From an uncultured Clostridia bacterium (GTDB lineage Bacteria; Bacillota; Clostridia; Christensenellales; Borkfalkiaceae), in the NCBI GenBank assembly GCA_944336975.1, contig CALVLH010000008.1:17133-81132 (forward strand): a stretch of DNA of 64,000 nt, given 5' to 3'. Both the position numbers and the translations under genes were made by a program. Shown piece by piece: positions 37,359 through 48,952 of this stretch (positions are counted from its first letter, which is position 1; each line of letters begins with the position of its first letter). Below the pieces are notes generated by a model. The model searched no databases. It saw only the letters and a list, made by a program, of their open reading frames with translations, and was not told where the DNA came from.

Positions 37359-38240
37359 TCAGCCTTCGTTGCCGAAATTCAACACTTCTTCGCGCGCGGG
37401 CACGGACTGCGCCGCGCCGCGCCGCGTGCAGGCGATGCTCGCCGCTTTGCTCCCGAACGCCATCGCCTCTTCCAGGCTCTTCCCCGCCGCAAGCTGTGCC
37501 GCCAAACCGCCGCAGAGAGTATCCCCCGCCGCCGTCGTATCCACGGCTTTCACGCGGATACAGGGATACCGCACGCTCCCGTTGCTATGGGCGATCTCAT
37601 AGCCGTCGGCGCCGAGCGTCGTTGCGACCGTCCCTACGCCTGAGCGGAAGAGCTCCTCTTTGCCGCCGAGCAACTCCGCCTCGCTCTCGTTGGGGGTGAT
37701 GAGATCGACGTAAGGAAGAAATTCCGCGATCGCCCGATCGGCGGGCGCGGGATTGAGGATGGTGTACAGTCCCGCCTCCTTTGCCTTTCTGAGCCCGTAA
37801 CCGACGACGGGCACGGGATTTTCCAATTGCGTGAGATAGATGTCGCCCTCCCGCGCCTGAGCGAGAACGCGGTCGATGTCTTCCCTGCTCAGTTGCGCAT
37901 TTGCGCCCTTGTCGAGGATGATCCTGTTTTCCCCGCCCGTCACGAGGATGACCGCAATCCCCGTCGGGCAGTTTTGCGCGCGGCGGATACAGCGCGTATC
38001 CACGTTCGCCGCCCGCAGATTTTCCATGAGCTGCTCCCCGAACGCGTCGTCGCCGACGCATCCGCACATCAGCACGCGGGCGCCGAGTTTACCCGCCGCC
38101 GTCGCCTGATTGGCGCCCTTGCCGCCGCCGTTGGTCATGAACCCGCTTCCCGTGAGTGTTTCCCCGCCGCGCGGGCAATAGGGCGCGTTGATGACGAGAT
38201 CCATGTTCAGGCTTCCCGTCACGATCACCTTCCGTTGCAT
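37359..38240 (-). CDS. rbsK: ribokinase (PfkB family)
   Basis: 293 residues. N-terminal GSLNMDLVINAP and NGGGKGANQATAAGKLGA bind the sugar; ITPNESEAELLGG precedes the ATP site. The catalytic/anion-hole motif reads VDTTAAGDTLCGG, where the common form is DTTGAGD (one Gly to Ala). It phosphorylates ribose or a similar furanose to the 5-phosphate. It closes the locus that carries two ADP-ribosylglycohydrolase-fold proteins, which is the main hint that ribose is the released sugar. A terminator-like hairpin precedes its GGAAGGAGG site, so its expression is probably lower than upstream genes. Confidence 0.9.
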   Translation of the reverse strand: MQRKVIVTGSLNMDLVINAPYCPRGGETLTGSGFMTNGGGKGANQATAAGKLGARVLMCGCVGDDAFGEQLMENLRAANVDTRCIRRAQNCPTGIAVILVTGGENRIILDKGANAQLSREDIDRVLAQAREGDIYLTQLENPVPVVGYGLRKAKEAGLYTILNPAPADRAIAEFLPYVDLITPNESEAELLGGKEELFRSGVGTVATTLGADGYEIAHSNGSVRYPCIRVKAVDTTAAGDTLCGGLAAQLAAGKSLEEAMAFGSKAASIACTRRGAAQSVPAREEVLNFGNEG

Positions 38241-38257
38241 CTTTTATCCTCCTTCCG

Positions 38258-38305
38258 AAAAAAACGCTTCCCCTACCGCGCGGCTGACCGCCTTTCGGGG
38301 AAGCG
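38258..38305 (-). terminator. internal terminator/attenuator in front of ribokinase
   Basis: CGCTTCCCC (38265-38273) with GGGGAAGCG (38297-38305), a 9-bp stem with a nested GCGG/CCGC. The minus-strand T7 run sits directly before the ribokinase ribosome site. Since no separate ribokinase promoter is visible, the gene may depend on readthrough. Confidence 0.7.
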
Positions 38306-38320
38306 CCCTATGTTCAGTAC

Positions 38321-38362
38321 GTCGGAATGCGGCGGGGCGCCGCGTCAGGGGAGAATTCCGAC
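38321..38362 (-). other. second intergenic hairpin after the surface-protein gene
   Basis: GTCGGAAT (38321-38328) pairs with ATTCCGAC (38355-38362), with an inner GCGGCG/CGCCGC stem. It lies directly 3' of the surface-protein stop and may protect the upstream mRNA from exonucleases (inference). Confidence 0.55.
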
Positions 38363-38387
38363 GCCCTGCACGCACATCCGATCGGGC

Positions 38388-40610
38388 TTATTTGCTGCCC
38401 TTACCCTTCTTCTTCAAAAGGACGACGGCGACGATCACGCCCGCGACGACGACCACGCCGACCACGCTGAGAACGACGGGCAGCACCCATGCGTTATTCG
38501 CGTCGGGATCGGTGGGATCTGCGGGATCGGAAGGACCGTCCGTTCCGCCCGCATTGACCGTGACGGCGTAGGACGCGACTTCCGTTCCGTCCTTGACGAC
38601 GGACACCGTGTAACCGCTCTTCATATCGCCGGAGGTGACGGCATTGCCGTCCGCGTCTTTGATCGTCATGGTATAACCGGGTGCCGCATACACTGCGTCG
38701 GTAAATTCGGAGACCGTCATCGCCTTTCCGATCGTGATGCCCGTTGCGGTAACGGTGACGTCCGAACTCGTATTGACGATCGCCTGCGAATAATCGTCGT
38801 TATTTTCTTCCACGGAAAGTTCTTCCATGCTCGTCTTATACATGGACACGCCGCCGATCTGCACGCCGCCCTGGAATATGTTGTTCTCGACGCCGCCTTC
38901 GAAGCCGACAAACACCGAATACGTTCCCGCCGTTTCCGCCGTGAAGATGAGGTTGACGGGCATATAAGCGTCGTCGCGCTCGAAGCGCACGTTCTGTTTT
39001 GCGACAACGGTGAGGTTATCCGTCGAATCATCCGCGTAAAGCGCCTCGCTGACCGATTCGTCGTCCCCTTCGATCACCATGACCGTGACGGGAGAATACA
39101 ATCCGTCATAAGCCGCGGACGCGCCGGAAATGAGATAGGTGCGCATATATGCGGTGATCTTATACATCTGACCAGCTTCGAGCGTGACGCTCTGCACGAT
39201 GCCGTCGTAAGGCGACCACTGGCTCAGCCAAATATCGCCTTGGGAGACGTATGCCTTGCCGTCCGCGCCGCCCGCTTCCCAGCCGAGCTGGCTGGATCCG
39301 CCGACTTCCCACCAACCGTCGCTGTTCTCTTCCAGCGCTCCGTTCGTGAGCAGGTTGGTCTTTCCTTCGGGCAGATCGAGCGCCGTCTTGAAGAAATAAC
39401 ATTCGTCCACATACAGCCCCGCGCCGTAGGTGCCGAAGCCCTTGGTCTCTACCTTCACGAAGGGATAGACCGTCGTGTTCTCGCCGACGTTCGCCACGAC
39501 GGAAGCGAGCATATATCTCGCGAGGGAGATGTCCGAGCCGTCGATGGTCTTCACGGTGAGGACGTCCTCCTGATTCTCCGCGAGGATCCCGATCTGGACC
39601 TTCTGCACGCCCGCCGTCGCCTTGACTTCGCCCCACTTGGAGAAGTTTGCATAGAAGGCGTAATTGGAACCCGCCTCGACCGTAACGGGCTGTCCGACGG
39701 TCATGGAACCTTCCGCGCCGGACTGCGCGACGAGGTACAGCGTGTTGCAGCCTTCGATCTGTTTATCCTGCATATTCGAGCCGGGAACGTATGCGCTCGT
39801 CGTTCTCACGTCGTCGATTCCGGCGGAGAAACCCGTCGTCGTCTCGCCGATCTCCACCCAATCTTTGAGCGCGTTCGCGCTGGTGGAATCCTCGAAGCCC
39901 GCGTTTTTGAGCAGGTTTTCCGAACCCGTGGACACGATGTCCTGCGCATAGGTCACGGAAATGTCGTCGATGGTGACGTTCATCTTCTGTACGCGGACGT
40001 AGAAGCGGATGTTCGTCTCGTTGCCCGTCCTGATCCTCGCGCTGTACAAAGAATAGCCGTTGTGCGCCGACCAGCTCTCGTCCTCGTTCTGATAGATCTT
40101 GTCCTTATCGACGGAGTTATCCGCCCATCTGTGCTGTTCGCCGTAAATGGTCTCTTCCGCGCGTTCTTCGGACGCGAACCCGAAGAAGAGATTGGCGCTC
40201 GACATCGCCGTGTTGTTGTTCTTCACGCGGAGCGCGACATAGTACGTCGTGTTGGGAAGAACGGTGATCTTCTGCGAGATCTCGGGATAGCCGCTGTCGT
40301 TGCCCGCGCCTTTGAGCGTGATCGCCTGCGATCCGCTGTGCGCGTCCGTCGAGACCTCCCAGCTTCCCTTTTCTCCCGCCGCTTCGGACGTGACGTCCAT
40401 CGTCCATGCGCCCGTATCGTCCGCGGTCACGCCTTCGAAACTTCCGTCCTGAATGAGATTGGAAGTCAGAAGGGAATCTTCCGTTTCCTCGCTGACGCCC
40501 TGCGCAAACGCGGAAAGCGTCTGCGCGGCAGGGACTGCCGCGACCATCGCCGCCGCGAGCATCAAGCTCCCCGCGCCGAGTGCTGTCTTGCTCCGTTTCT
40601 TCGTTTTCAT
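38388..40610 (-). CDS. exported membrane-anchored protein with three carbohydrate-binding-like modules
   Basis: 740 residues. Sec signal peptide (MKTKKRSKTALGAGSLMLAA to about residue 36). Three similar beta-sandwich modules of the CBM4/9 type begin NLIQDGSFEG, NLLKNAGFED and NLLTNGALEENSDGWWEVGG. A bacterial-Ig-like or linker region follows, then a Pro/Asp linker, a C-terminal helix (VLPVVLSVVGVVVVAGVIVA) and a KKKGKGSK stop. It is thus displayed on the outer face of the membrane with no visible catalytic domain. Probably captures substrate for the importer. It follows the exported ADP-ribosylglycohydrolase-like gene by 15 bp. Confidence 0.82.
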   Translation of the reverse strand: MKTKKRSKTALGAGSLMLAAAMVAAVPAAQTLSAFAQGVSEETEDSLLTSNLIQDGSFEGVTADDTGAWTMDVTSEAAGEKGSWEVSTDAHSGSQAITLKGAGNDSGYPEISQKITVLPNTTYYVALRVKNNNTAMSSANLFFGFASEERAEETIYGEQHRWADNSVDKDKIYQNEDESWSAHNGYSLYSARIRTGNETNIRFYVRVQKMNVTIDDISVTYAQDIVSTGSENLLKNAGFEDSTSANALKDWVEIGETTTGFSAGIDDVRTTSAYVPGSNMQDKQIEGCNTLYLVAQSGAEGSMTVGQPVTVEAGSNYAFYANFSKWGEVKATAGVQKVQIGILAENQEDVLTVKTIDGSDISLARYMLASVVANVGENTTVYPFVKVETKGFGTYGAGLYVDECYFFKTALDLPEGKTNLLTNGALEENSDGWWEVGGSSQLGWEAGGADGKAYVSQGDIWLSQWSPYDGIVQSVTLEAGQMYKITAYMRTYLISGASAAYDGLYSPVTVMVIEGDDESVSEALYADDSTDNLTVVAKQNVRFERDDAYMPVNLIFTAETAGTYSVFVGFEGGVENNIFQGGVQIGGVSMYKTSMEELSVEENNDDYSQAIVNTSSDVTVTATGITIGKAMTVSEFTDAVYAAPGYTMTIKDADGNAVTSGDMKSGYTVSVVKDGTEVASYAVTVNAGGTDGPSDPADPTDPDANNAWVLPVVLSVVGVVVVAGVIVAVVLLKKKGKGSK

Positions 40611-40625
40611 AATATCCTCCTTATT

Positions 40626-42404
40626 TCATACGGTTTTCTGAAACGTAAAATCGTCCAGTCTGAGGTAATCGGTCGCGTTCGCGCCCGTGAGCACCGCCCC
40701 GATGCGGAGCGTATCGTTGTTGCCCGAGTTGACGGTCATCGTGATCTTCACCCAGCCGTCTCCCGTCTCGCAGGCCTTGCTGCGGAGCAGATCGCCCGAG
40801 GCGTTCCATACGGCGAGGGACAGTTCGGATGCAAACCCTTCGCTCGCCTGTACCATGCACGTCAGTTCGTAATTGGTGTTCTTTTCGACGGAAACGCTGT
40901 TGTAGAGGTTGACCTCCGCGCCTGGCTTTGCCGTGAGCTTCACGTTGGAAAGCCCCGTATACGCCGTCTGCGCCATCCATTCCACGGACGTGTTCGCCTT
41001 GCTGTCCGAACTCCATCCGTTCGCGATCTGATTGGTGCAGCGCTCGAAGCCGGGATCGGCGATGGTGCGCATGCGGTCCATCTCTTCCTCCGTATACGTC
41101 ATCAGTTCCATCGGTTCGGGATATTTGCTGTTCTTGTATTCTTCGATCTGCGCCGTCTTCGCTTCCTGCGGGATGACGAAGCTGAGCACGTCGTCCACAT
41201 AAGCCACCTTACCGCCCTCGCGGACGACGATCTCTTCGAGCAGCTTCACGCAAAGCTCCACCGTTTCGTCGATCGTGCTCGAACAGTACTTGAATTTCTG
41301 ATCCTCGATGAGCCCGTTTTTATAGCGGTCGTCCAATGCGGAATAGCCCTTGATCGCCGCGAGGATGCCGCCCGTCGCCGCCGCCGTCGAGTCGGAGTCG
41401 TTCGCGCAGGAGATGGTCAGCCGCATGGACTTGTCCATATCCTCTTCGCCGTACAAAAGCCCGATGAGGGTGAACGCCGAACACATCTTCGCGTCGAGCA
41501 GGATCCCGTCGTAAGGCCAGCCGATCCAGTTATATTCCTCGCTCAGGACATAGGTGGAATATACGTCGTTGAAGTTTTCCTGCGCGGTCATGCCTGCGTC
41601 GTAATTTTCGAGCACGTTGCGCACGACGAGCGCCGACCAGGAATCCTCGGGAATGGCATTGAGCCCCGCCTGAATGATCTCGCCGATGTCGTCGGTGAAG
41701 AACGCCGCGCCGTACATGGCAGAGATGAACTGCATGGAATAGATCCCGTCGCCGTAACAGCAGATCTCGGCGAATTTCTGGCACGTCTCGTTGAGGAAGC
41801 CCGTCATGTTCAGTCCCAGCAATCCGCTAAACGACGCACCGCACTGATAGCTGTTCCCGTCGGGGTACGCGCCCGTCAGATAACTCGTCGAATACTTGGG
41901 ATACCCTGAGAACGGAGGCGCGAACCCGCGCGCCAGGACGTCGTTGTTGGAGCCGTTCCAGAACTCGAAGTCCTTGTTGTACATATAGATGCCCAGCTCG
42001 CGGCTGGTCGCGTCCAGCCCGAGTTCGTTCAGCGCCTCGATCGCCGTCACCGTGAGGTAGACGTCGTCCTGCGTGTAAGCGTTCTGGATGATGTCGTCGT
42101 ACCACCTCGGCAGCGAACTGTCGGGGATCCACGTCTTGTACCAGAACTCCACGGGATACCCGTATGCGACGCCCGCCATCGTGCCGACGAGCGCTCCCTT
42201 CGCCTTATCGCGATAGGTATCGATCGAAAGCACGGACGTCGTCGCGGGCAGGTCAGCCGAAGAAAGTTTTTCGTATTTTTCCACGGGCGGATCCTCCTCT
42301 TCGGGCCGACAGGAAGCAAATGCCGCGCAACTTGCCGCGAGCATGGTCCCCGCCAAAGCCACACAAACTGTTTTTCCGATGTTTTTCATTCCCTTCTCCT
42401 TCAT
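40626..42404 (-). CDS. exported ADP-ribosylglycohydrolase-fold lipoprotein with binding module
   Basis: 592 residues. Signal peptide ending at a probable lipobox (FASC, C32; C26 is an alternative). Residues about 60-430 match the ADP-ribosylglycohydrolase (ARH/DraG) fold: AKGALVGTMAGVAYGYPVEF, QDDVYLTVTAIEA (D113, D114), and CANDSDSTAAATGGI (D336, D338), the acidic positions that bind two metals in the family. Residues from about 440 form a CBM-like beta domain (PGFERCTNQIANGW onward). The ATG overlaps the previous stop (ATGA); a second ATG at 42389 with AAGGAG is a possible alternative. Substrate is unknown; an external ribosyl bond is inferred from context. Confidence 0.82.
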   Translation of the reverse strand: MKEKGMKNIGKTVCVALAGTMLAASCAAFASCRPEEEDPPVEKYEKLSSADLPATTSVLSIDTYRDKAKGALVGTMAGVAYGYPVEFWYKTWIPDSSLPRWYDDIIQNAYTQDDVYLTVTAIEALNELGLDATSRELGIYMYNKDFEFWNGSNNDVLARGFAPPFSGYPKYSTSYLTGAYPDGNSYQCGASFSGLLGLNMTGFLNETCQKFAEICCYGDGIYSMQFISAMYGAAFFTDDIGEIIQAGLNAIPEDSWSALVVRNVLENYDAGMTAQENFNDVYSTYVLSEEYNWIGWPYDGILLDAKMCSAFTLIGLLYGEEDMDKSMRLTISCANDSDSTAAATGGILAAIKGYSALDDRYKNGLIEDQKFKYCSSTIDETVELCVKLLEEIVVREGGKVAYVDDVLSFVIPQEAKTAQIEEYKNSKYPEPMELMTYTEEEMDRMRTIADPGFERCTNQIANGWSSDSKANTSVEWMAQTAYTGLSNVKLTAKPGAEVNLYNSVSVEKNTNYELTCMVQASEGFASELSLAVWNASGDLLRSKACETGDGWVKITMTVNSGNNDTLRIGAVLTGANATDYLRLDDFTFQKTV

Positions 42405-44431
42405 AGTTCCTTTATTTCAAACCGACCGAAACGGACGACGCTGCCGTTTCCGACATACGCGCCGACGCACCCGTCGGTGATCGCCTCTTCGTCCGTGCAG
42501 ACGAACATGATCTCCCCGTCCACGGCGGCGGAGATCTCCTTCCCCCGCGCCGTCACCGATATGCGGCAGGGCTTGCCCGAGGGCGGCGTCGCTTCCCGCT
42601 CCGCGAGCAGCGTTTCTCCGCCGTACACGCGCACAAGGCGCAGTTTTCCTCCCTCATAGGCGAGACGGTAATGCCTCCGCGCCCCGCGGACGCGGAAGAG
42701 GATGCCGAAATCGCCGCCGGAAGCGGGCGTCATCTCCGCCGCGAAAGAAAGATCTTTCATCGGCAACGACGTATAAAGCTGTCCGTTGCCGAGACACCGT
42801 CCCGTGAGCTTGCCCTCTTCCAGCGTCCATACGCCGTCGTAATGGGTGCATTGCCGCACTTCCGTGTGTTCCAGCGAATACGCTTCCGTCTCTTCCGAAG
42901 AAAAGTCGATCTCGTAATCGGGTTTCCCCGTACAGGAGAGCTCTTCGAGGCGCACCTCGCCGCCCTCCTCCGTACGGACGGCGAGCCCGATCTTTCCGAT
43001 CAGCGCCGTCTTTGCGACTTCGATCTTCCACTCCGTCGCGCCCTCTTCGGAAAAATACGTCTTTCCGCCGTGCAGATCCTCGCAGAACAGGCGCACCCGC
43101 GCGCCGCCCGCCGTGCGGTAGCGGGCGCGGATGGTCTGTCCGTTATACGCCTTGGGGGAAAAGGCGGGGTCGTAGCGATTGTCGTACAGATCTTCTTTCC
43201 GATAATATGTCTTGTAAAATACCTTGCCTTCGCGGCCGTTTGCGGAGACGATCTTCAACGCGCCGTCCGTATGGGCGATACGGGCGTCCGCGTCCGCACG
43301 CATCCCGCTCACCGAACGGGGAAGCGCGAAATCCACGCGCATCTCGTCCGCGCCGAAGCGGAGCGAGGACGCATACTTTCCTTCGTACGTCTCCCCGCGC
43401 AGGCGGAGCGCCGAACGGAACACGTCGTAGGCGAAATTGGGGATGTTCACGATGTTGGCATAACCGAGCACGGAGGAACAGAGCGTTGTATCGCGGACGG
43501 GAGCGATCCAGGTATCGTAGTCAACCCCTTCCAGCGAGGTGAACACGCCCATGACCGTACCCAGGTTGCCGACGTTGCAGTCGGTATCGAAACCGCTGAA
43601 ATTGGCGATCTTCAGCGTGCGGAGGAAATCCCCTTCCCCGTACAGCAAGGCGTATACCATGATCGCCGCGTTCGGGATGATGTGACAGTTCCCGCCGTAT
43701 CGATCCTTCCAGTAATTGGCGCGGATGTAATCGAAGCACGCTTCCTGCGCGCCGCCTTCGCGGTAAAAGCGCATGAGATCGCGCACCGTTTTCGCATAAC
43801 CGCTCTCCTTCGGGATGACGGACAGTCCCGCGAGCAGGATCTCTTCCACGCTCTTCGCGCCGAACGCCGCGCTGATCATCGCCGCGACGAAGCGCCCGCC
43901 GTCCGCGGCGACGCCGTCGTGCGAGACTCTCGCCGCCATCTCCGCAAGATCCGCCGCCCTGCGCTGATCGTACGGGGAAACCAACCCCCACACGTCGCTG
44001 AAGATCTGCCCGCCGATCTGCTCCGCCATCGTCCTGCCGTTTTGCAGGATACTGCCGCTCATCGGCGGAAGGATGCCTTTTTGCAGGTTCAGATACGCCG
44101 TATGTTCTTCGGAAACTCCGTAGCCGCCCCACCAGTAAAAACCGTGCTGATACGGCACATAGTTGAGCCAGCATTCCGCAAGATCCGCGTACCCGTAACG
44201 GGAAAGATCGGGGCAGTCGCGCAGGGCGCGATAGAAGAAGACGGGACCGTTGCTGTCGTCGTCGGCGGCAAAGTCGTTGTAATCGACGAAGTATCCCTCT
44301 TTGCCCGCATATTTTTCGCGGATCTGCACATATTCCCACATCTCCACGGGAGCGCCGTAACGGATGCCGATCGTCTTGCCCAGCCAGCCGAAATATATTT
44401 TTTCCAGATCGTTGTCGTTTAACTTTTTCAC
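42401..44431 (-). CDS. cytoplasmic ADP-ribosylglycohydrolase-fold enzyme with C-terminal binding domains
   Basis: 676 residues, no signal peptide. Residues 1 to about 335 are the ADP-ribosylglycohydrolase fold: YFGWLGKTIGIRYGAPVEMW, FAADDDSNGPVFFYRAL (D57-D59) and FSGFDTDCNVGNLGTVMG (D282, D284), the last being close to the family's GxDTDCN. The remaining half is two beta domains, the final one (about 500-676) resembling a concanavalin-like or DUF1080-type sandwich. The start is GTG with only a weak ribosome site, 13 bp after the permease. It is likely to cleave the imported substrate in the cytoplasm. Together with the exported paralogue it is the enzymatic core of the locus. Confidence 0.82.
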   Translation of the reverse strand: MKKLNDNDLEKIYFGWLGKTIGIRYGAPVEMWEYVQIREKYAGKEGYFVDYNDFAADDDSNGPVFFYRALRDCPDLSRYGYADLAECWLNYVPYQHGFYWWGGYGVSEEHTAYLNLQKGILPPMSGSILQNGRTMAEQIGGQIFSDVWGLVSPYDQRRAADLAEMAARVSHDGVAADGGRFVAAMISAAFGAKSVEEILLAGLSVIPKESGYAKTVRDLMRFYREGGAQEACFDYIRANYWKDRYGGNCHIIPNAAIMVYALLYGEGDFLRTLKIANFSGFDTDCNVGNLGTVMGVFTSLEGVDYDTWIAPVRDTTLCSSVLGYANIVNIPNFAYDVFRSALRLRGETYEGKYASSLRFGADEMRVDFALPRSVSGMRADADARIAHTDGALKIVSANGREGKVFYKTYYRKEDLYDNRYDPAFSPKAYNGQTIRARYRTAGGARVRLFCEDLHGGKTYFSEEGATEWKIEVAKTALIGKIGLAVRTEEGGEVRLEELSCTGKPDYEIDFSSEETEAYSLEHTEVRQCTHYDGVWTLEEGKLTGRCLGNGQLYTSLPMKDLSFAAEMTPASGGDFGILFRVRGARRHYRLAYEGGKLRLVRVYGGETLLAEREATPPSGKPCRISVTARGKEISAAVDGEIMFVCTDEEAITDGCVGAYVGNGSVVRFGRFEIKEL

Positions 44432-44444
44432 ATTCTTAACCGCT

Positions 44445-45323
44445 TTATTTTATTCCCGTGATCTTGATGCCCTGCATGATGTATTTTTGCATGAGCATGA
44501 GGATCACCACGAGAGGGATGCAGGTGATCACGGTGGAAGCGAGGAGCATATCCCACGCCGTCCCCTGTGAATTCCTGAAATATGCAATTAACTGATTGAC
44601 CTGATACAGGTTCGCGTTGCCGTGCACCGTCATGGACGGCCAGATGTAGGAATTCCAGAAACCCTGGAATACGCTCATGCCCATGATGATGAAAGGCGTG
44701 ACGGACATCGGAAGAAAGATGCGGACGTATATCCCGAAACGGGAGCATCCGTCCATGAGCGCCGCCTCCTCCAACGAACGCGGCATGCCGAGATAATACT
44801 GACGGTAAAAGAAGATGGACCACACATACGTCACGCCCGGCAGAATGAGCACGAGGAGATTGTTGAGCATATTCAGCTTGCTGACGACGTAGTAACACGG
44901 GATGAGCGTGGCGATGCTCGGAACGAACATATTGACCGCATACATCGCCCACAGGAGCTTTTTCCCGGGGAATTCCAGACGGGCGAACGCATATGCCGCG
45001 AGGGAATTGACCGCCAGGCTCAGGACGAGCGCGATCACCGAGACGAGAAAGGTCATGCCCAGAGAACGCACAAAGGACACCCCGCGCGGGAAATAAACCG
45101 AATTGCCCGCAAACAGGTTGGCATAGTTTTCCGCCGTCCACTGTTTGGGGAAGAAATGGAAGGTGATGCTCTGGATCTCCGCCAACGGCTTGAACGAGGA
45201 GATCACCACCCACAAAAACGGAAACACGCTGCACACGAGAAGAATGATCCCCACGAGCCACATGAGCGCTGTTCCGACCGCCCGCATGACGACGGCTTTG
45301 TTCACTGTTTTGACGCGCTGCAT
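44445..45323 (-). CDS. sugar ABC transporter permease, MalG type
   Basis: 292 residues with six predicted membrane helices. The cytoplasmic coupling loop (EAA motif) is EEAALMDGCSRFGIYVRIFL. Pairs with the MalF-type permease upstream (11-bp gap). No ATP-binding subunit is encoded here, so a shared MsmX-like ATPase elsewhere is expected, as is common in Firmicutes. Confidence 0.93.
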   Translation of the reverse strand: MQRVKTVNKAVVMRAVGTALMWLVGIILLVCSVFPFLWVVISSFKPLAEIQSITFHFFPKQWTAENYANLFAGNSVYFPRGVSFVRSLGMTFLVSVIALVLSLAVNSLAAYAFARLEFPGKKLLWAMYAVNMFVPSIATLIPCYYVVSKLNMLNNLLVLILPGVTYVWSIFFYRQYYLGMPRSLEEAALMDGCSRFGIYVRIFLPMSVTPFIIMGMSVFQGFWNSYIWPSMTVHGNANLYQVNQLIAYFRNSQGTAWDMLLASTVITCIPLVVILMLMQKYIMQGIKITGIK

Positions 45324-45333
45324 ATTCCCCTCC

Positions 45334-46302
45334 TCAGTCGAGCGATTTTTCCGAACTCGTCAGTCGGAAGATGACGGACGAGAGCGCCGTGAGCACCACC
45401 GCGACGACGAGCGACGCCGCATACACTTCGCCCATGTTCTTGCTGTAATTGAACTGATAGTACAGATAATAGATCGGGCCTTCCGTCGCGTGCATCGCAC
45501 CGCTCCCGACGATCACGAGCGCGATCTCGTAAAGCTGGAAGGAACTGACGACGAGCGAGATGAGAAGATACATCCCGATGTTTTTCAGGCACGGCAGAGT
45601 GATATACACCGTCTGTTGCCACCAGTTCGCGCCGTCCAGCTTCGCCGCCTCATAATAGTCGGAGGGAATGTCGTGCAGCCCGCCGAGCATGATGAGGGTG
45701 GTATACCCCAGACCGTTCCACACCGCCGCGATACACACGGAGAACACCGCCCATCCGGGTTCGCCCGTCCAGTTGACTTTGGACAGCCCGAACATCTGCA
45801 AAACGCTGTTGAACAGCCCGCCGTCGTAATTGTAGAGGAAGGAAAAGATCGCCCCTACCACGATGCCTGAGATCAGACAGGGCAGATAAATGCAGACCTT
45901 GATGACCGCGGAGAATTTTGGATTGATCTTGACGATCAGATTCGCGATCAAAAAGGATAAAACGAGCTGCAAAGGAACGATGATCGCGATGTATTCCACC
46001 CCGACGAGGATGGAGCGATAGAACTCCGCGCTGATGCTCCCCGCCAGGATCTTGTGGTAATTGTCGAACCAGACAAATACGTTTCCGAGATAATAGTTGA
46101 CGTCGAACAGACTGAAATAGGCGGAAATGATGAGCGGAACGGTGATGAACAGCATCATGAGCACGAACGACGGCAACAAACAGACATAAGCCGTGATCGC
46201 TTCGCCCTTCTTATATTTCCGTTTTTTCCGCGGCGCCTGCGCCGCTTCCGTCTGCGGCGCTTCGGCGATGACGTCGGTATCGCGCACTTTCGATTGCGTC
46301 AT
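45334..46302 (-). CDS. sugar ABC transporter permease, MalF type
   Basis: 322 residues, six predicted helices after a basic, Ala-rich cytoplasmic N terminus. The EAA loop is YYEAAKLDGANWWQQTVYIT. AAGGAGG precedes the ATG; 12 bp after the binding-protein gene. Member of the oligosaccharide (CUT1) importer class. Confidence 0.93.
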   Translation of the reverse strand: MTQSKVRDTDVIAEAPQTEAAQAPRKKRKYKKGEAITAYVCLLPSFVLMMLFITVPLIISAYFSLFDVNYYLGNVFVWFDNYHKILAGSISAEFYRSILVGVEYIAIIVPLQLVLSFLIANLIVKINPKFSAVIKVCIYLPCLISGIVVGAIFSFLYNYDGGLFNSVLQMFGLSKVNWTGEPGWAVFSVCIAAVWNGLGYTTLIMLGGLHDIPSDYYEAAKLDGANWWQQTVYITLPCLKNIGMYLLISLVVSSFQLYEIALVIVGSGAMHATEGPIYYLYYQFNYSKNMGEVYAASLVVAVVLTALSSVIFRLTSSEKSLD

Positions 46303-46314
46303 GGCGTGCCCTCC

Positions 46315-47664
46315 TTATTTGTTGAACGGATTGGTTCCCTGCATGACCTCCGCTTCGATGAGGTTGTTCAGATCTTTTTCCAACGTTGCGAGCGTCGCGT
46401 CAACTTCCTTTCCGAGCTGCGTGACCGTTTCCAACGCGTCCGCATATTTCCTGGAAATCTCCCAGATGTATGCGGGTTCCGCCTTCGCATAGGGCAGGAT
46501 GCTGTCGGAGACGAAATTATAGAACGGATCGGCGGACGCCTCCTCGTTGTTGCCGAGCGCTTCTTCCACGCTCTTTCTCGCCGCAAACTTGGAATATCCG
46601 AGATCGCTCATGAATTCTTCCAGATGCGCGGTATCGCCGCCGAGCAGCCATTCGATGAACTGCCCGCACTCTTCGGGATGCTTCGCGTTGCCGTCGATCG
46701 CCATGCCCCAGCCGCCCATCGCCGCGGTCGTCTTGCCTTCCGTCACGCCGTCGATCGTCGGGCATACCACATAGCCGATGTCGGAAAGGATCTCGGGATA
46801 GTTGTTCTTGATCTGCCCGATCGACCACGAGCCGCCGAGCGCCATCGCGACGTGCCCTTCGGCAAGCGGAGTGATCTCGTTATAGCTGGAAAGCGCCACC
46901 GCGGGCGTGAGTTTTTCCGTATACATGGTCCGGAACATCGTAAAGAGTTCTTTATGAAATTGCGTGTTCACCGACGCATGTGACCAATCGTCATTGAGAA
47001 GGTAATATCCTTGCGAATTCTCGTCCTGTGCCTGGAACCCCCAAAGCACCCAGCCGAGCTGGCTGGAATTGGGCATCGCGATGCCGTAACGGTCTGTCTT
47101 GTTCAGCTTTCGCGCGTATTCCACCATCTCGTCCCAGGACGCAGGACCGACTTCGGGATCCAGCCCGACCTCTTCGAACGCGCTCTTGCGATAGAAGAGG
47201 ATGCTGTACGGCTCGATGAACCAGGGATAGATATAATGGCTCCCGTTGACGTCCGTCATCTCGTTCACGTTGTCCAGAAGATCGGTGAAGCACGATTCCG
47301 ACATATAATCGTCCAACGGTTTGTAATATCCCTCCACGGAATTGAGCGCCACTTCCGCGTAGTTCAGGACGGTGATCTCGGGCGCGGTGCCGTTGCCCTG
47401 CGCCGCTTTCAGCGTCTGCTCCCACGCGTCTTCGGGAACGAACGTCAGCTCGATGAGGTAATTCCCCTCCGTCGCCGCGTCCGTCGCGTTGAATTCGTCC
47501 ACTTTATTCTGCAACCAGGTGCGCGTTTCCACTTCCGGGAACGTCTGACACCAGATGCGCACCGGCGTCTTTCCGTCATAATCGTCCCCGCCGCACCCTG
47601 CGAGCGCCACGGCGGATAACGCCATGACCGTGCCTACTGCGATTGCCGCGATCCGTCTTTTCAT
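46315..47664 (-). CDS. sugar ABC transporter substrate-binding lipoprotein
   Basis: 449 residues. Lipoprotein signal MKRRIAAIAVGTVMALSAVA with lipobox LAGC. Mature part is a CUT1 extracellular solute-binding protein (family 1), with EITVLNYAEVALNS, HVAMALGGSWSIGQ and GGWGMAIDGNAKHPEECGQF. Delivers substrate to the two permeases. CAAGGAGG precedes the ATG. The promoter's -10 abuts a LacI operator. Confidence 0.94.
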   Translation of the reverse strand: MKRRIAAIAVGTVMALSAVALAGCGGDDYDGKTPVRIWCQTFPEVETRTWLQNKVDEFNATDAATEGNYLIELTFVPEDAWEQTLKAAQGNGTAPEITVLNYAEVALNSVEGYYKPLDDYMSESCFTDLLDNVNEMTDVNGSHYIYPWFIEPYSILFYRKSAFEEVGLDPEVGPASWDEMVEYARKLNKTDRYGIAMPNSSQLGWVLWGFQAQDENSQGYYLLNDDWSHASVNTQFHKELFTMFRTMYTEKLTPAVALSSYNEITPLAEGHVAMALGGSWSIGQIKNNYPEILSDIGYVVCPTIDGVTEGKTTAAMGGWGMAIDGNAKHPEECGQFIEWLLGGDTAHLEEFMSDLGYSKFAARKSVEEALGNNEEASADPFYNFVSDSILPYAKAEPAYIWEISRKYADALETVTQLGKEVDATLATLEKDLNNLIEAEVMQGTNPFNK

Positions 47665-47681
47665 CTCAATATCCTCCTTGA

Positions 47682-47700
47682 TGTAAACGTTTACATTATA
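47682..47700 (-). promoter_or_regulatory. operator O1 and -10 of the importer operon
   Basis: TGTAAACGTTTACA palindrome (47682-47695) directly follows TATAAT (47700-47695, minus strand). A repressor bound here would cover the transcription start. No convincing -35 is visible in the AT-rich upstream DNA. Confidence 0.85.
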
Positions 47701-47854
47701 AAAAATAAAAAATCAAATAATCTTTATTCTTTTTTTCGAATGCGCTCCCGTGCGATCTGCGGGATCCGCCGCGCGTTCCCGCACATAGCGCTCCCCTCTC
47801 TCCGATCACGCCGTCCGTGCGCATATCGGCAGATCCGCATCCTTTCCTCCATGG

Positions 47855-47868
47855 TGTAAACGTTTACA
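47855..47868. promoter_or_regulatory. operator O2 between lacI and the importer operon
   Basis: Identical TGTAAACGTTTACA palindrome, 15 bp after the regulator stop codon and 173 bp (centre to centre) from O1. An auxiliary site for looping is possible. Confidence 0.82.
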
Positions 47869-47882
47869 TCATGGAACAAGGA

Positions 47883-48914
47883 TCAGATCCTGCGTACGGA
47901 ATCGCGTTCGACGAGCTTACGCTCGCAAAACGCCTCTCGCGCCGCGCCGTCGTAATCATAGAGGATCCTGTCGAAGAGCAGACGCGCGGCCTTCTCGGCA
48001 AATTCGGCGCTGTCGTTGATCACCGTCGTGAGCGCGGGTTTGACGATCTCGGACATGGCGATGTTATCCATGCCGACGACGGAAATATCCTGCGGGACCT
48101 CGATGCCCGCCGTTTGGAAATACTGAATGATGCCGATGGCGATCATATCGTTCGCGCAGGCGATCGCCGTCGGACGGTCGGAAAGCGAAGCGAAGTACGC
48201 TCCCGCGCGGTAGCCCCCTTCCAGCGTGAAGGAATCGGAAAAACAATATTCCTCTCTCCCCTCCACGCCGTATTCCGCGATCGCGCGGCGATACCCGGAA
48301 AGGCGGCGGTCGTTGAGGATGGACTTGGGATTCCCGCCCGCAAACGCGACTTTGCGATGTCCGTTTTCAAGAAGATGGGACGTCGCGAGATAGACGCCCT
48401 GCCCCGGTTTGATCCCGTGGACGGTATCGAAGATCTTATTGTCGAATCCCGACGAGGCGACGACGGGCTTGTTCAGTTCTTTTAAGCTCTCGATGATCTC
48501 CCGATCGTCGGAAACGGAACAGAATACGACGCCGTCGCAATTGAGTTCGGAAACCAGCTTGATCGCGTGGATCTCCTCCGCTTCCGACTCGTTGGTATTG
48601 AAAAGGATGACGACGTAGCCTTCCGCATGCGCGATGCTCTGCAATACGTCGTACAGTTTGGCATAATAGGGATTTTTGATGTCGGGGACGATGAGCATGA
48701 TCTGCATAGAGCGACTGGTCTTCAAGCCGCGCGCAAACCGATTGGGCATATAGTGGAACTTCTCGATCGCCTCTTTGATGCGCTTTGCCTTCTCCTCCCC
48801 GACGTAGACTTCGTGATTGATAAACCGCGAAACCGTGGCAACGGACACGCCCGCTTCCCTTGCGATGTCGTTCATAGTGATCGATTTTTTAGTTTTGTAA
48901 ACGTTTACATCCAT
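47883..48914 (-). CDS. LacI-family transcriptional regulator
   Basis: 343 residues from the ATG at 48914. Helix-turn-helix and hinge: TMNDIAREAGVSVATVSRFI then YMPNRFARGL. The effector domain is periplasmic-binding-like (IMLIVPDIKNPYYAKLYDVL, VVGMDNIAMSEIVKPALTTV). It probably represses the importer and itself through three identical 14-bp operators and is released by a sugar or metabolite of the pathway. The start is uncertain. The ATG at 48914 is only about 3 nt from the predicted transcription start, and codons 3-6 lie in operator O3; the next ATG at 48875 would trim the N terminus. Confidence 0.93.
   Translation of the reverse strand: MDVNVYKTKKSITMNDIAREAGVSVATVSRFINHEVYVGEEKAKRIKEAIEKFHYMPNRFARGLKTSRSMQIMLIVPDIKNPYYAKLYDVLQSIAHAEGYVVILFNTNESEAEEIHAIKLVSELNCDGVVFCSVSDDREIIESLKELNKPVVASSGFDNKIFDTVHGIKPGQGVYLATSHLLENGHRKVAFAGGNPKSILNDRRLSGYRRAIAEYGVEGREEYCFSDSFTLEGGYRAGAYFASLSDRPTAIACANDMIAIGIIQYFQTAGIEVPQDISVVGMDNIAMSEIVKPALTTVINDSAEFAEKAARLLFDRILYDYDGAAREAFCERKLVERDSVRRI
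48896..48909. promoter_or_regulatory. operator O3 at the regulator's own start
   Basis: Identical TGTAAACGTTTACA palindrome, overlapping the first codons of the regulator and about 10 bp downstream of its predicted transcription start, consistent with autorepression. Confidence 0.85.
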
Positions 48915-48923
48915 TGCAAGTTC

Positions 48924-48952
48924 ATGATAACACAGCATTTCCGCTTTGTCAA
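48924..48952 (-). promoter_or_regulatory. promoter of the LacI-family regulator
   Basis: TTGACA (48952-48947), 17 bp, TATCAT (48929-48924) on the minus strand. Confidence 0.75.

Follow-up and report, generated by a model that had tools for sequence, protein, structure and literature searches.

A LacI-associated locus with two ADP-ribosylglycohydrolase-fold proteins, a CUT1 importer and a ribokinase-type kinase: a candidate system for scavenging a ribofuranosyl-containing nutrient

Organization of the locus

We analysed a 64,000-nucleotide stretch of DNA (hereafter the window) from an uncultured Clostridia bacterium of the family Borkfalkiaceae (assembly GCA_944336975.1, contig CALVLH010000008.1, positions 17,133 to 81,132). 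Eight genes, all on the minus strand, occupy positions 37359-48938 of the window. They encode a LacI-family regulator, a solute-binding lipoprotein (SBP), two CUT1 permeases, two proteins of the ADP-ribosylglycohydrolase (ARH) fold, one cytoplasmic (ARHcyt) and one probably secreted (ARHsec), a surface protein with modules resembling carbohydrate-binding modules (CBM), and a PfkB-family kinase. The gene order, strand and coordinates given in a preliminary description of this DNA all hold. The features of the locus are as follows, in the direction of transcription.

48924..48952, minus strand: promoter-like site TTGACA-17-TATCAT with TG ahead of the -10 element; 11 of 12 consensus bases; just upstream of operator O1
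48896..48909, unstranded: operator O1, TGTAAACGTTTACA, at the lacI start; perfect match, with an equivalent site in the related loci L191, L192 and L143
47883..48914, minus strand: LacI-family regulator; Pfam LacI and Peripla_BP_3
47855..47868, unstranded: operator O2, in the interval from lacI to the SBP gene; perfect match; L143 and L191 each have two operators here
47682..47695, unstranded: operator O3, overlapping by one base a TATAAT that precedes the SBP gene; perfect match
46315..47664, minus strand: solute-binding lipoprotein of an ABC importer, CUT1 type; SBP_bac_1, lipobox LAGC
45334..46302, minus strand: CUT1 permease 1; BPD_transp_1, 1.1e-16
44445..45323, minus strand: CUT1 permease 2; BPD_transp_1, 4.7e-13
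42401..44431, minus strand: ARHcyt, cytoplasmic ARH-fold hydrolase of 676 residues; Pfam, AlphaFold2 (AF2) model, PDB matches and invariant Asp residues
40626..42404, minus strand: ARHsec, secreted and probably lipid-anchored ARH-fold hydrolase of 592 residues; Pfam 3.6e-18, fold search and metal ligands
38388..40610, minus strand: surface CBM-like protein; signal-peptide-like N-terminus, CBM_4_9-like modules and C-terminal transmembrane helix
37359..38240, minus strand: ribokinase-type PfkB kinase; TIGR02152 score and closest solved structures

The Pfam families found are LacI, SBP_bac_1, BPD_transp_1 (twice), ADP_ribosyl_GH (3e-48 for ARHcyt and 3.6e-18 for ARHsec) and PfkB (1.3e-63). Most of the genes are tightly packed, with 12 nt between the SBP and permease genes, 10 nt between the two permease genes, 13 nt from permease to ARHcyt and 15 nt from ARHsec to the CBM-like protein, while the ARHcyt and ARHsec genes overlap by 4 nt. 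Wider gaps separate lacI from the SBP gene (218 nt, with two operators inside) and the CBM-like protein gene from the kinase gene (147 nt). The locus encodes no ATPase for its importer; one MalK-type ATPase is encoded elsewhere in the genome. The surface protein combines CBM_4_9-like modules with an acidic and proline-containing linker, the C-terminal transmembrane helix and a basic tail.

Operators and conservation of the block

The 14-base palindrome TGTAAACGTTTACA occurs in three perfect copies, at 47682, 47855 and 48896, which are its sole matches in the 64 kb at up to two mismatches. Shuffled sequences gave a mean of 0.09 copies each, and none of the 100 shuffles reached three. The promoter-like site ends 14 bases ahead of O1. 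Because such sites are no commoner over the region than in shuffles (3 found versus a mean of 5.3), it is only the position beside the operator that speaks for this one. The longest open reading frame (ORF) of lacI starts at 48938, and the ATG at 48914 yields a protein beginning MDVNVY, matching that of L191. At 48875-48914 the operator doubles as the codons for VNVY near this LacI start, as it does in L191. The promoter-like site lies so close that an mRNA read from the ATG at 48914 would be almost leaderless, or else translation begins later. The regulator is not assignable as RbsR, its best NCBIfam model, NF047341, scoring 215.6 bits against an equivalog cut-off of 382.

A search of 101 genomes of the genus with the binding protein as query revealed orthologues at 65-100% identity in four, the window's own included, and matches at 28-33% in three more. 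L191 and L192 contain the complete set of eight genes, in unchanged order and at 43-79% identity (ARHcyt 60-61%, ARHsec 58-68%, CBM-like protein 43-75%, kinase 46-66%), with operators at 0 or 1 mismatch ahead of lacI and of the SBP gene. In L190, from genome G1172, the contig begins 55 nt before the SBP gene, which leaves the lacI side off the contig, and six genes are kept. The absence of a kinase from L190:9183-9830 in this nearest relative reflects either a natural loss or a gap in the assembly. A more distant locus, L143, comes from genome G215 of another family of the same order; it has the LacI, SBP, two permease, ARHcyt and ARHsec genes in this order at 42-57% identity, followed by the contig end, and its operators sit at the same places as in the window. 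Upstream of lacI, L143:1-2780 encodes a GH2-family hydrolase and a protein without a Pfam match. Counterparts of O1 were found in L191 at 3160 (0 mismatches), L192 at 1588 (1) and L143 at 2887 (1). The interval that holds O2 has pairs of sites in L143 (3994 and 4056) and L191 (4309 and 4328), and one operator-like site precedes the SBP gene in L190 (at 25, 0 mismatches) and in L192 (at 2727, 1 mismatch). The conserved block and these operators bear out the single regulated unit proposed in the preliminary description.

The genes flanking the block, among them hem, SerRS and sporulation genes as read from translations without a database check, are not the same in the window, L191 and L192, which gives the block a self-contained appearance. 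Its distribution is patchy despite an unremarkable base composition: the GC content of the locus (0.55-0.60) lies within the range found elsewhere in the window (0.52-0.61), which lends no support to recent transfer. L193, from G1142, is one of the loci with a 28-33% match to the binding protein; it has importer-like genes at 30-47% identity, and no ARH or kinase match was found in the stretch. ARHcyt was matched in none of the nine same-genus genomes of one sample. Full-length matches to ARHsec were obtained in G000 and G215 only, in samples of 396 genomes of the order and 391 of the class, and in G215's family one of six genomes, G215 itself, was matched. Among the 299 genomes of the phylum sampled, the surface protein matched its own genome only, yet it is present in three congeneric loci.

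The two ARH-fold proteins

ARHcyt comprises an ARH domain (residues 15-303), a middle β domain and a CBM66-like C-terminal module. Its PF03747 score is 165.4 bits versus a gathering threshold of 26.2, and its AF2 model, built from 63 aligned sequences, has a pLDDT of 94.5. In the PDB the N-terminal domain matches MJ1187 (TMt 0.75) and ARH3 (TMt up to 0.69), as well as DraG and ARH1. The C-terminal domain superposes on the levanase CBM66 4azz with a TMt of 0.84 and a root-mean-square deviation (rmsd) of 1.6, CBM66 structures ranging from 0.78 to 0.84 in TMt, in agreement with a CBM66 profile match at E 6e-6; fold and sequence both relate the module to SacC, the founder of CBM66. Galactocerebrosidase-type multi-domain entries ranked better by E-value but superposed poorly (rmsd about 16).

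The metal site of ARH proteins is formed by two acidic metal-binding motifs and an upstream Glu. In ARHcyt, residues D57, D58, D59, D282 and D284 are invariant in all 82 aligned members, and E30 is conserved in 81. Residue 281, within the second motif, is Phe in the window, G215, L190, L191 and L192 and Trp in 79 of the 82 members. The invariant residues are common to members from kinase-type, nucleoside-type and GH65-type contexts, and may thus reflect one shared sugar-binding site. In known ARHs, the pocket region of the NGxxM motif holds the diphosphate of ADP-ribose. At N131-G132 this segment reads NGxxMAEQIGGQIF in ARHcyt versus NGAAMRVSPLG in Escherichia coli YegU, a difference that suggests a substrate other than ADP-ribose. 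As judged from these residues, ADP-ribose itself appears unlikely as the substrate of ARHcyt.

ARHsec scores 66.7 bits against PF03747, with the same gathering threshold of 26.2. Its model is of lower confidence (pLDDT 65.4); in the PDB it most resembles DraG, MJ1187 and ARH3, and the C-terminus is CBM4-2-like. All five sequences compared, the window's included, have E86, D113, D114, D336 and D338. The NGxxM motif is not recognisable in ARHsec. A hydrophobic N-terminus with a nearby Cys indicates that the protein is probably exported. The acidic residues named in the preliminary description (D57-D59 and D282/D284; D113/D114 and D336/D338) are thus where it placed them, and the accessory modules it reported were recovered, as a CBM66-like module in ARHcyt by profile and model and as a CBM4-like one in ARHsec by a low-confidence model.

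Gene neighbourhoods of ARHcyt relatives

We performed an analysis of the genes surrounding the best 80 of 86 ARHcyt relatives found in species genomes. Neighbouring genes were called by a home-made choice of ORFs and clustered, with Pfam names assigned on cluster representatives only. A gene run was taken as genes on the same strand with gaps below 400 nt, which misses some neighbours, such as the nucleoside genes of L107 just past the gap. A shadow ORF broke the window's own run, so the window kinase was not counted; locus counts over the 80 leave out the window, and the gene counts out of 622 and 593 include it.

A ribokinase-type PfkB kinase lies in the run of 35 of the 80 relatives, five of which also have a LacI-PfkB fusion. 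Nucleoside genes, for a BMP importer binding protein, nucleoside hydrolase (IUNH), adenosine deaminase (ADA), nucleoside phosphorylase (PNP) or deoxyribosyltransferase (NDT), lie in the run of 19. Either group is found in 54 of the 80, which supports the ribosyl-type substrate of the preliminary description; both together are found in none. Kinase genes account for 40 of 622 genes inside runs versus 2 of 593 outside; the p value of 3e-10 is not literal, since the loci are related by descent. The four nucleoside enzymes account for 29 of 622 inside versus 9 of 593 outside, and the BMP binding protein for 16 inside versus 4 outside. When eight kinase domains from these neighbourhoods were scored, five exceeded the NCBI ribokinase cut-off.

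On the ARHcyt tree, made by a quick method and giving the window row a long branch, the window and G215 form a separate clade. A clade of Bacilli and others is associated with the kinase, CUT1, further ARHs, AtuA and DUF4387, a Neglectibacter-type clade with the LacI-kinase fusion, kinase and CUT1, a Lachnospiraceae-type clade with ADA, IUNH and BMP, and an Erysipelotrichaceae-type clade with BMP and IUNH, or in four members with PNP and two NDTs. The contexts are divided among distinct clades; ties to ribose chemistry are therefore seen in several lineages and not in one inherited operon.

Three arrangements among the relatives were also observed. The ARHcyt homologue is followed by PNP and two NDTs in L103:11988-13828, L107:12491-14426, L108:11953-13792 and L110:11992-13806; a BMP importer comes next in L107 and L110, further off in L103, and was not seen in L108. 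In L042-L045 and L047 (for example L043:4852-6813) a single polypeptide of some 650 residues combines a LacI regulator with a ribokinase-type PfkB domain, and possibly senses through the latter. Most loci from L063 to L099 have one to three extra ARH proteins, usually together with AtuA, DUF4387, a CUT1 importer and a kinase.

The solved structures closest to the window kinase are ribokinases, the best at 2.2e-57. The window genome has two more close ribokinase-type genes, at 54% and 42% identity. In G1208 and G1211 the kinase of the locus is the sole strong match of the ribokinase type, the next best having E values of 5e-4 and 1e-5.

Proposed function and alternatives

From the gene context, the window locus is rather probably a LacI-controlled, Gram-positive-type utilisation locus that scavenges a ribofuranosyl-containing nutrient. 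Capture and trimming of the substrate would take place outside the cell, through the anchored CBM-like protein and through ARHsec as a lipoprotein, and the CUT1 importer, served by an ATPase encoded elsewhere, would take up a ribose-bearing fragment. The metal centre of ARHcyt would then hydrolyse the ribosyl bond while the CBM66-like module grips the furanoside end, and the kinase would yield ribose 5-phosphate. Ribose as the released sugar, hydrolysis as the reaction, the place of each step and the aglycone are all points that we infer. Candidate substrates are a nucleoside, an O-riboside or a ribose-bearing polymer. The CUT1 importer and the surface modules point to an oligomer or glycoside over a free nucleoside, whereas relatives with nucleoside operons speak for the reverse. 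More tentatively, both ARHs may belong to a new family of metal-dependent ribofuranosidases and be the only hydrolases of the locus, with ARHsec acting on a ribose-bearing polymer and ARHcyt finishing the fragments. Bacterial capsule or O-antigen ribofuranose and eukaryotic poly(ADP-ribose) would be the candidate polymers.

A number of observations weigh against a ribofuranosyl nutrient. Neither kinase nor nucleoside genes were found in the runs of 26 of the 80 ARHcyt relatives, three of these with GH65, and L060 combines a kinase with GH38 and an MFS transporter. The preliminary description had named gene neighbourhoods as a check, homologues beside unrelated sugar genes and without ribokinase counting against its proposal; these 26 relatives fall on that side for ARHcyt, on which the 54 others agree with it. 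For ARHsec the same comparison is unfavourable: a ribokinase-type gene was found in none of the 16 fetched stretches of distant kin, chosen among the better matches, and of two distant ARHsec loci examined one contains GH2, GH3 and ROK genes and the other GH39. The sugar handled by ARHsec is therefore less sure than that of ARHcyt.

The kinase provides further such points. It scores 293.2 bits with TIGR02152, just below the equivalog cut-off of 299.65; its L191 orthologue is clearly below (257) and its L192 orthologue passes (317.7). The "ribokinase" of the preliminary description thus stands as a ribokinase-type PfkB protein whose nearest structures are ribokinases, short of the cut-off for the name itself. 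The 54% paralogue in the window genome adjoins a GH31 gene, and the other lies near genes of the ribulose-phosphate-3-epimerase family, DUF6259 and DUF2961; kinases of this type may therefore act on other sugars. In the congeneric L190 no kinase lies between the CBM-like protein gene and an MscS-like gene, but G1172 encodes a 53% paralogue at another site. Among four orthologues of the surface protein, one has a CBM_4_9 match above the Pfam cut-off of 25.9 (window 23.5, L190 36.4, L191 25.2, L192 no match). Finally, CBM66 has been characterised on fructans and is described as binding terminal fructose.

This last property raises the alternative that what the locus breaks down is a furanoside, such as a fructofuranoside, or a glycan containing some sugar other than ribose, and that its kinase is a fructokinase-like PfkB. 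The resemblance of the ARHcyt C-terminal module to the levanase CBM66, the kinase score slightly under the ribokinase cut-off, the paralogue beside GH31 and the presence of GH65 in four of the 80 relatives (one of these also with a BMP importer) would fit such a locus. We nevertheless consider it unlikely, as no GH32 gene was found among the annotated neighbours (part of the neighbours being annotated), nucleoside genes accompany 19 of the 80 relatives, and the closest solved kinases are ribokinases.

Breakdown of nucleosides or of NAD and ADP-ribose, the ARHs cutting N- or O-ribosyl bonds of nucleosides or of ribosyl-adenosine derived from poly(ADP-ribose), is suggested by the gene orders ADA-ARH-IUNH-BMP and ARH-PNP-NDT-NDT in relatives and by the fold relationship of ARHcyt to ARH3, which acts on ADP-ribosyl O-bonds. 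It seems a decidedly improbable role for the window locus, where the importer is CUT1 and not BMP, surface binding modules are present and the ARHcyt pocket segment is unlike that of YegU; kinase and nucleoside genes never share a run in the relatives, and two IUNH genes lie elsewhere in the genome. That the ARHs reverse protein ADP-ribosylation and adjoin sugar genes by chance is very hard to credit, even though DraG, ARH1 and ARH3 have the same fold and metal ligands, given that none of the eight proteins has a Pfam match to a family of ADP-ribosyltransferases or toxins, that the sugar genes are co-conserved and that the secreted ARH carries a carbohydrate-binding-like module. Matches to Tri1-type hydrolases were weak and partial, and a role in ADP-ribosylation control or toxin immunity was rejected.

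Comparison with known systems

ARH-fold proteins are usually named after ADP-ribosylation. Compared with DraG, ARH1, ARH3 and MJ1187, the window ARHs share the predicted fold and acidic metal ligands and differ by their CBM66- and CBM4-like modules, the AEQIGGQIF segment of ARHcyt and a catabolic operon. A locus with two ARHs, reaching from the surface to the cytoplasm and apparently directed at ribose, is what is surprising here, and its context argues well for an ARH subfamily having a role in nutrition. Some unexplained ARH-fold proteins may thus be nutrient enzymes, and the conserved eight-gene block offers a compact protein set for settling that role. If the subfamily defined by DDD, (W/F)DTDC and a CBM66-like module frees nutrient ribose, many annotations are misleading, and a metal-dependent ribosidase family would have to be added to the carbohydrate-active enzymes. 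If ARHcyt is a ribofuranosidase, its family could supply the step so far lacking for O-ribosylated nucleosides in operons of the ADA-ARH-IUNH and ARH-PNP-NDT types.

The E. coli yegTUV-yegW (ggaR) operon is a small cousin of the window locus, combining the ARH YegU, the putative nucleoside transporter YegT, the putative sugar kinase YegV and a repressor. It has a GntR regulator where the window has LacI and an MFS transporter where the window has CUT1, and it lacks a secreted ARH and binding modules; the YegU motifs TDDT, GGDTDT and NGxxMR also differ from those of ARHcyt. The function of YegU is still described as unclear (PMC10819704). As yegTUV pairs a transporter, an ARH and a PfkB kinase, the preliminary description was wrong to hold that ARH enzymes seldom belong to catabolic loci, and its "undescribed system" is fair at most for the present combination. 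Among the matches listed from the open-licence literature, we found no description of a system joining an ARH with ribokinase, ribose utilisation, a ribosidase or a utilisation locus, and do not claim its absence from print.

Polysaccharide utilisation loci of Gram-positive bacteria (gpPUL) are defined by a regulator, a transport system and a degrading enzyme in one locus (PMC5320581). The window locus has the LacI protein, the SBP and two permeases, with the ATPase outside the locus, and fits this definition provided that an ARH is accepted as the degrading enzyme. It differs in that its eight proteins include no classical glycoside hydrolase domain, the ARH-fold proteins being the only hydrolases.

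The functional analogue is the rus locus of Bacteroides thetaiotaomicron, reportedly defined by Glowacki in 2020, some variants of which reportedly encode ARHs. We take the BT2804 locus to be rus. The genes listed for BT2804 are a ribokinase, a TonB receptor, SusD, DUF4969, a nucleoside hydrolase and a permease (PMC10434189). Both loci have a ribokinase or ribokinase-type kinase, a dedicated importer and an actual or proposed ribosyl-releasing enzyme, but rus relies on TonB/SusD transport and a nucleoside hydrolase, whereas the window locus has an ABC importer and ARHs. If the proposed function is correct, ribose scavenging in Bacteroides gains a Gram-positive counterpart.

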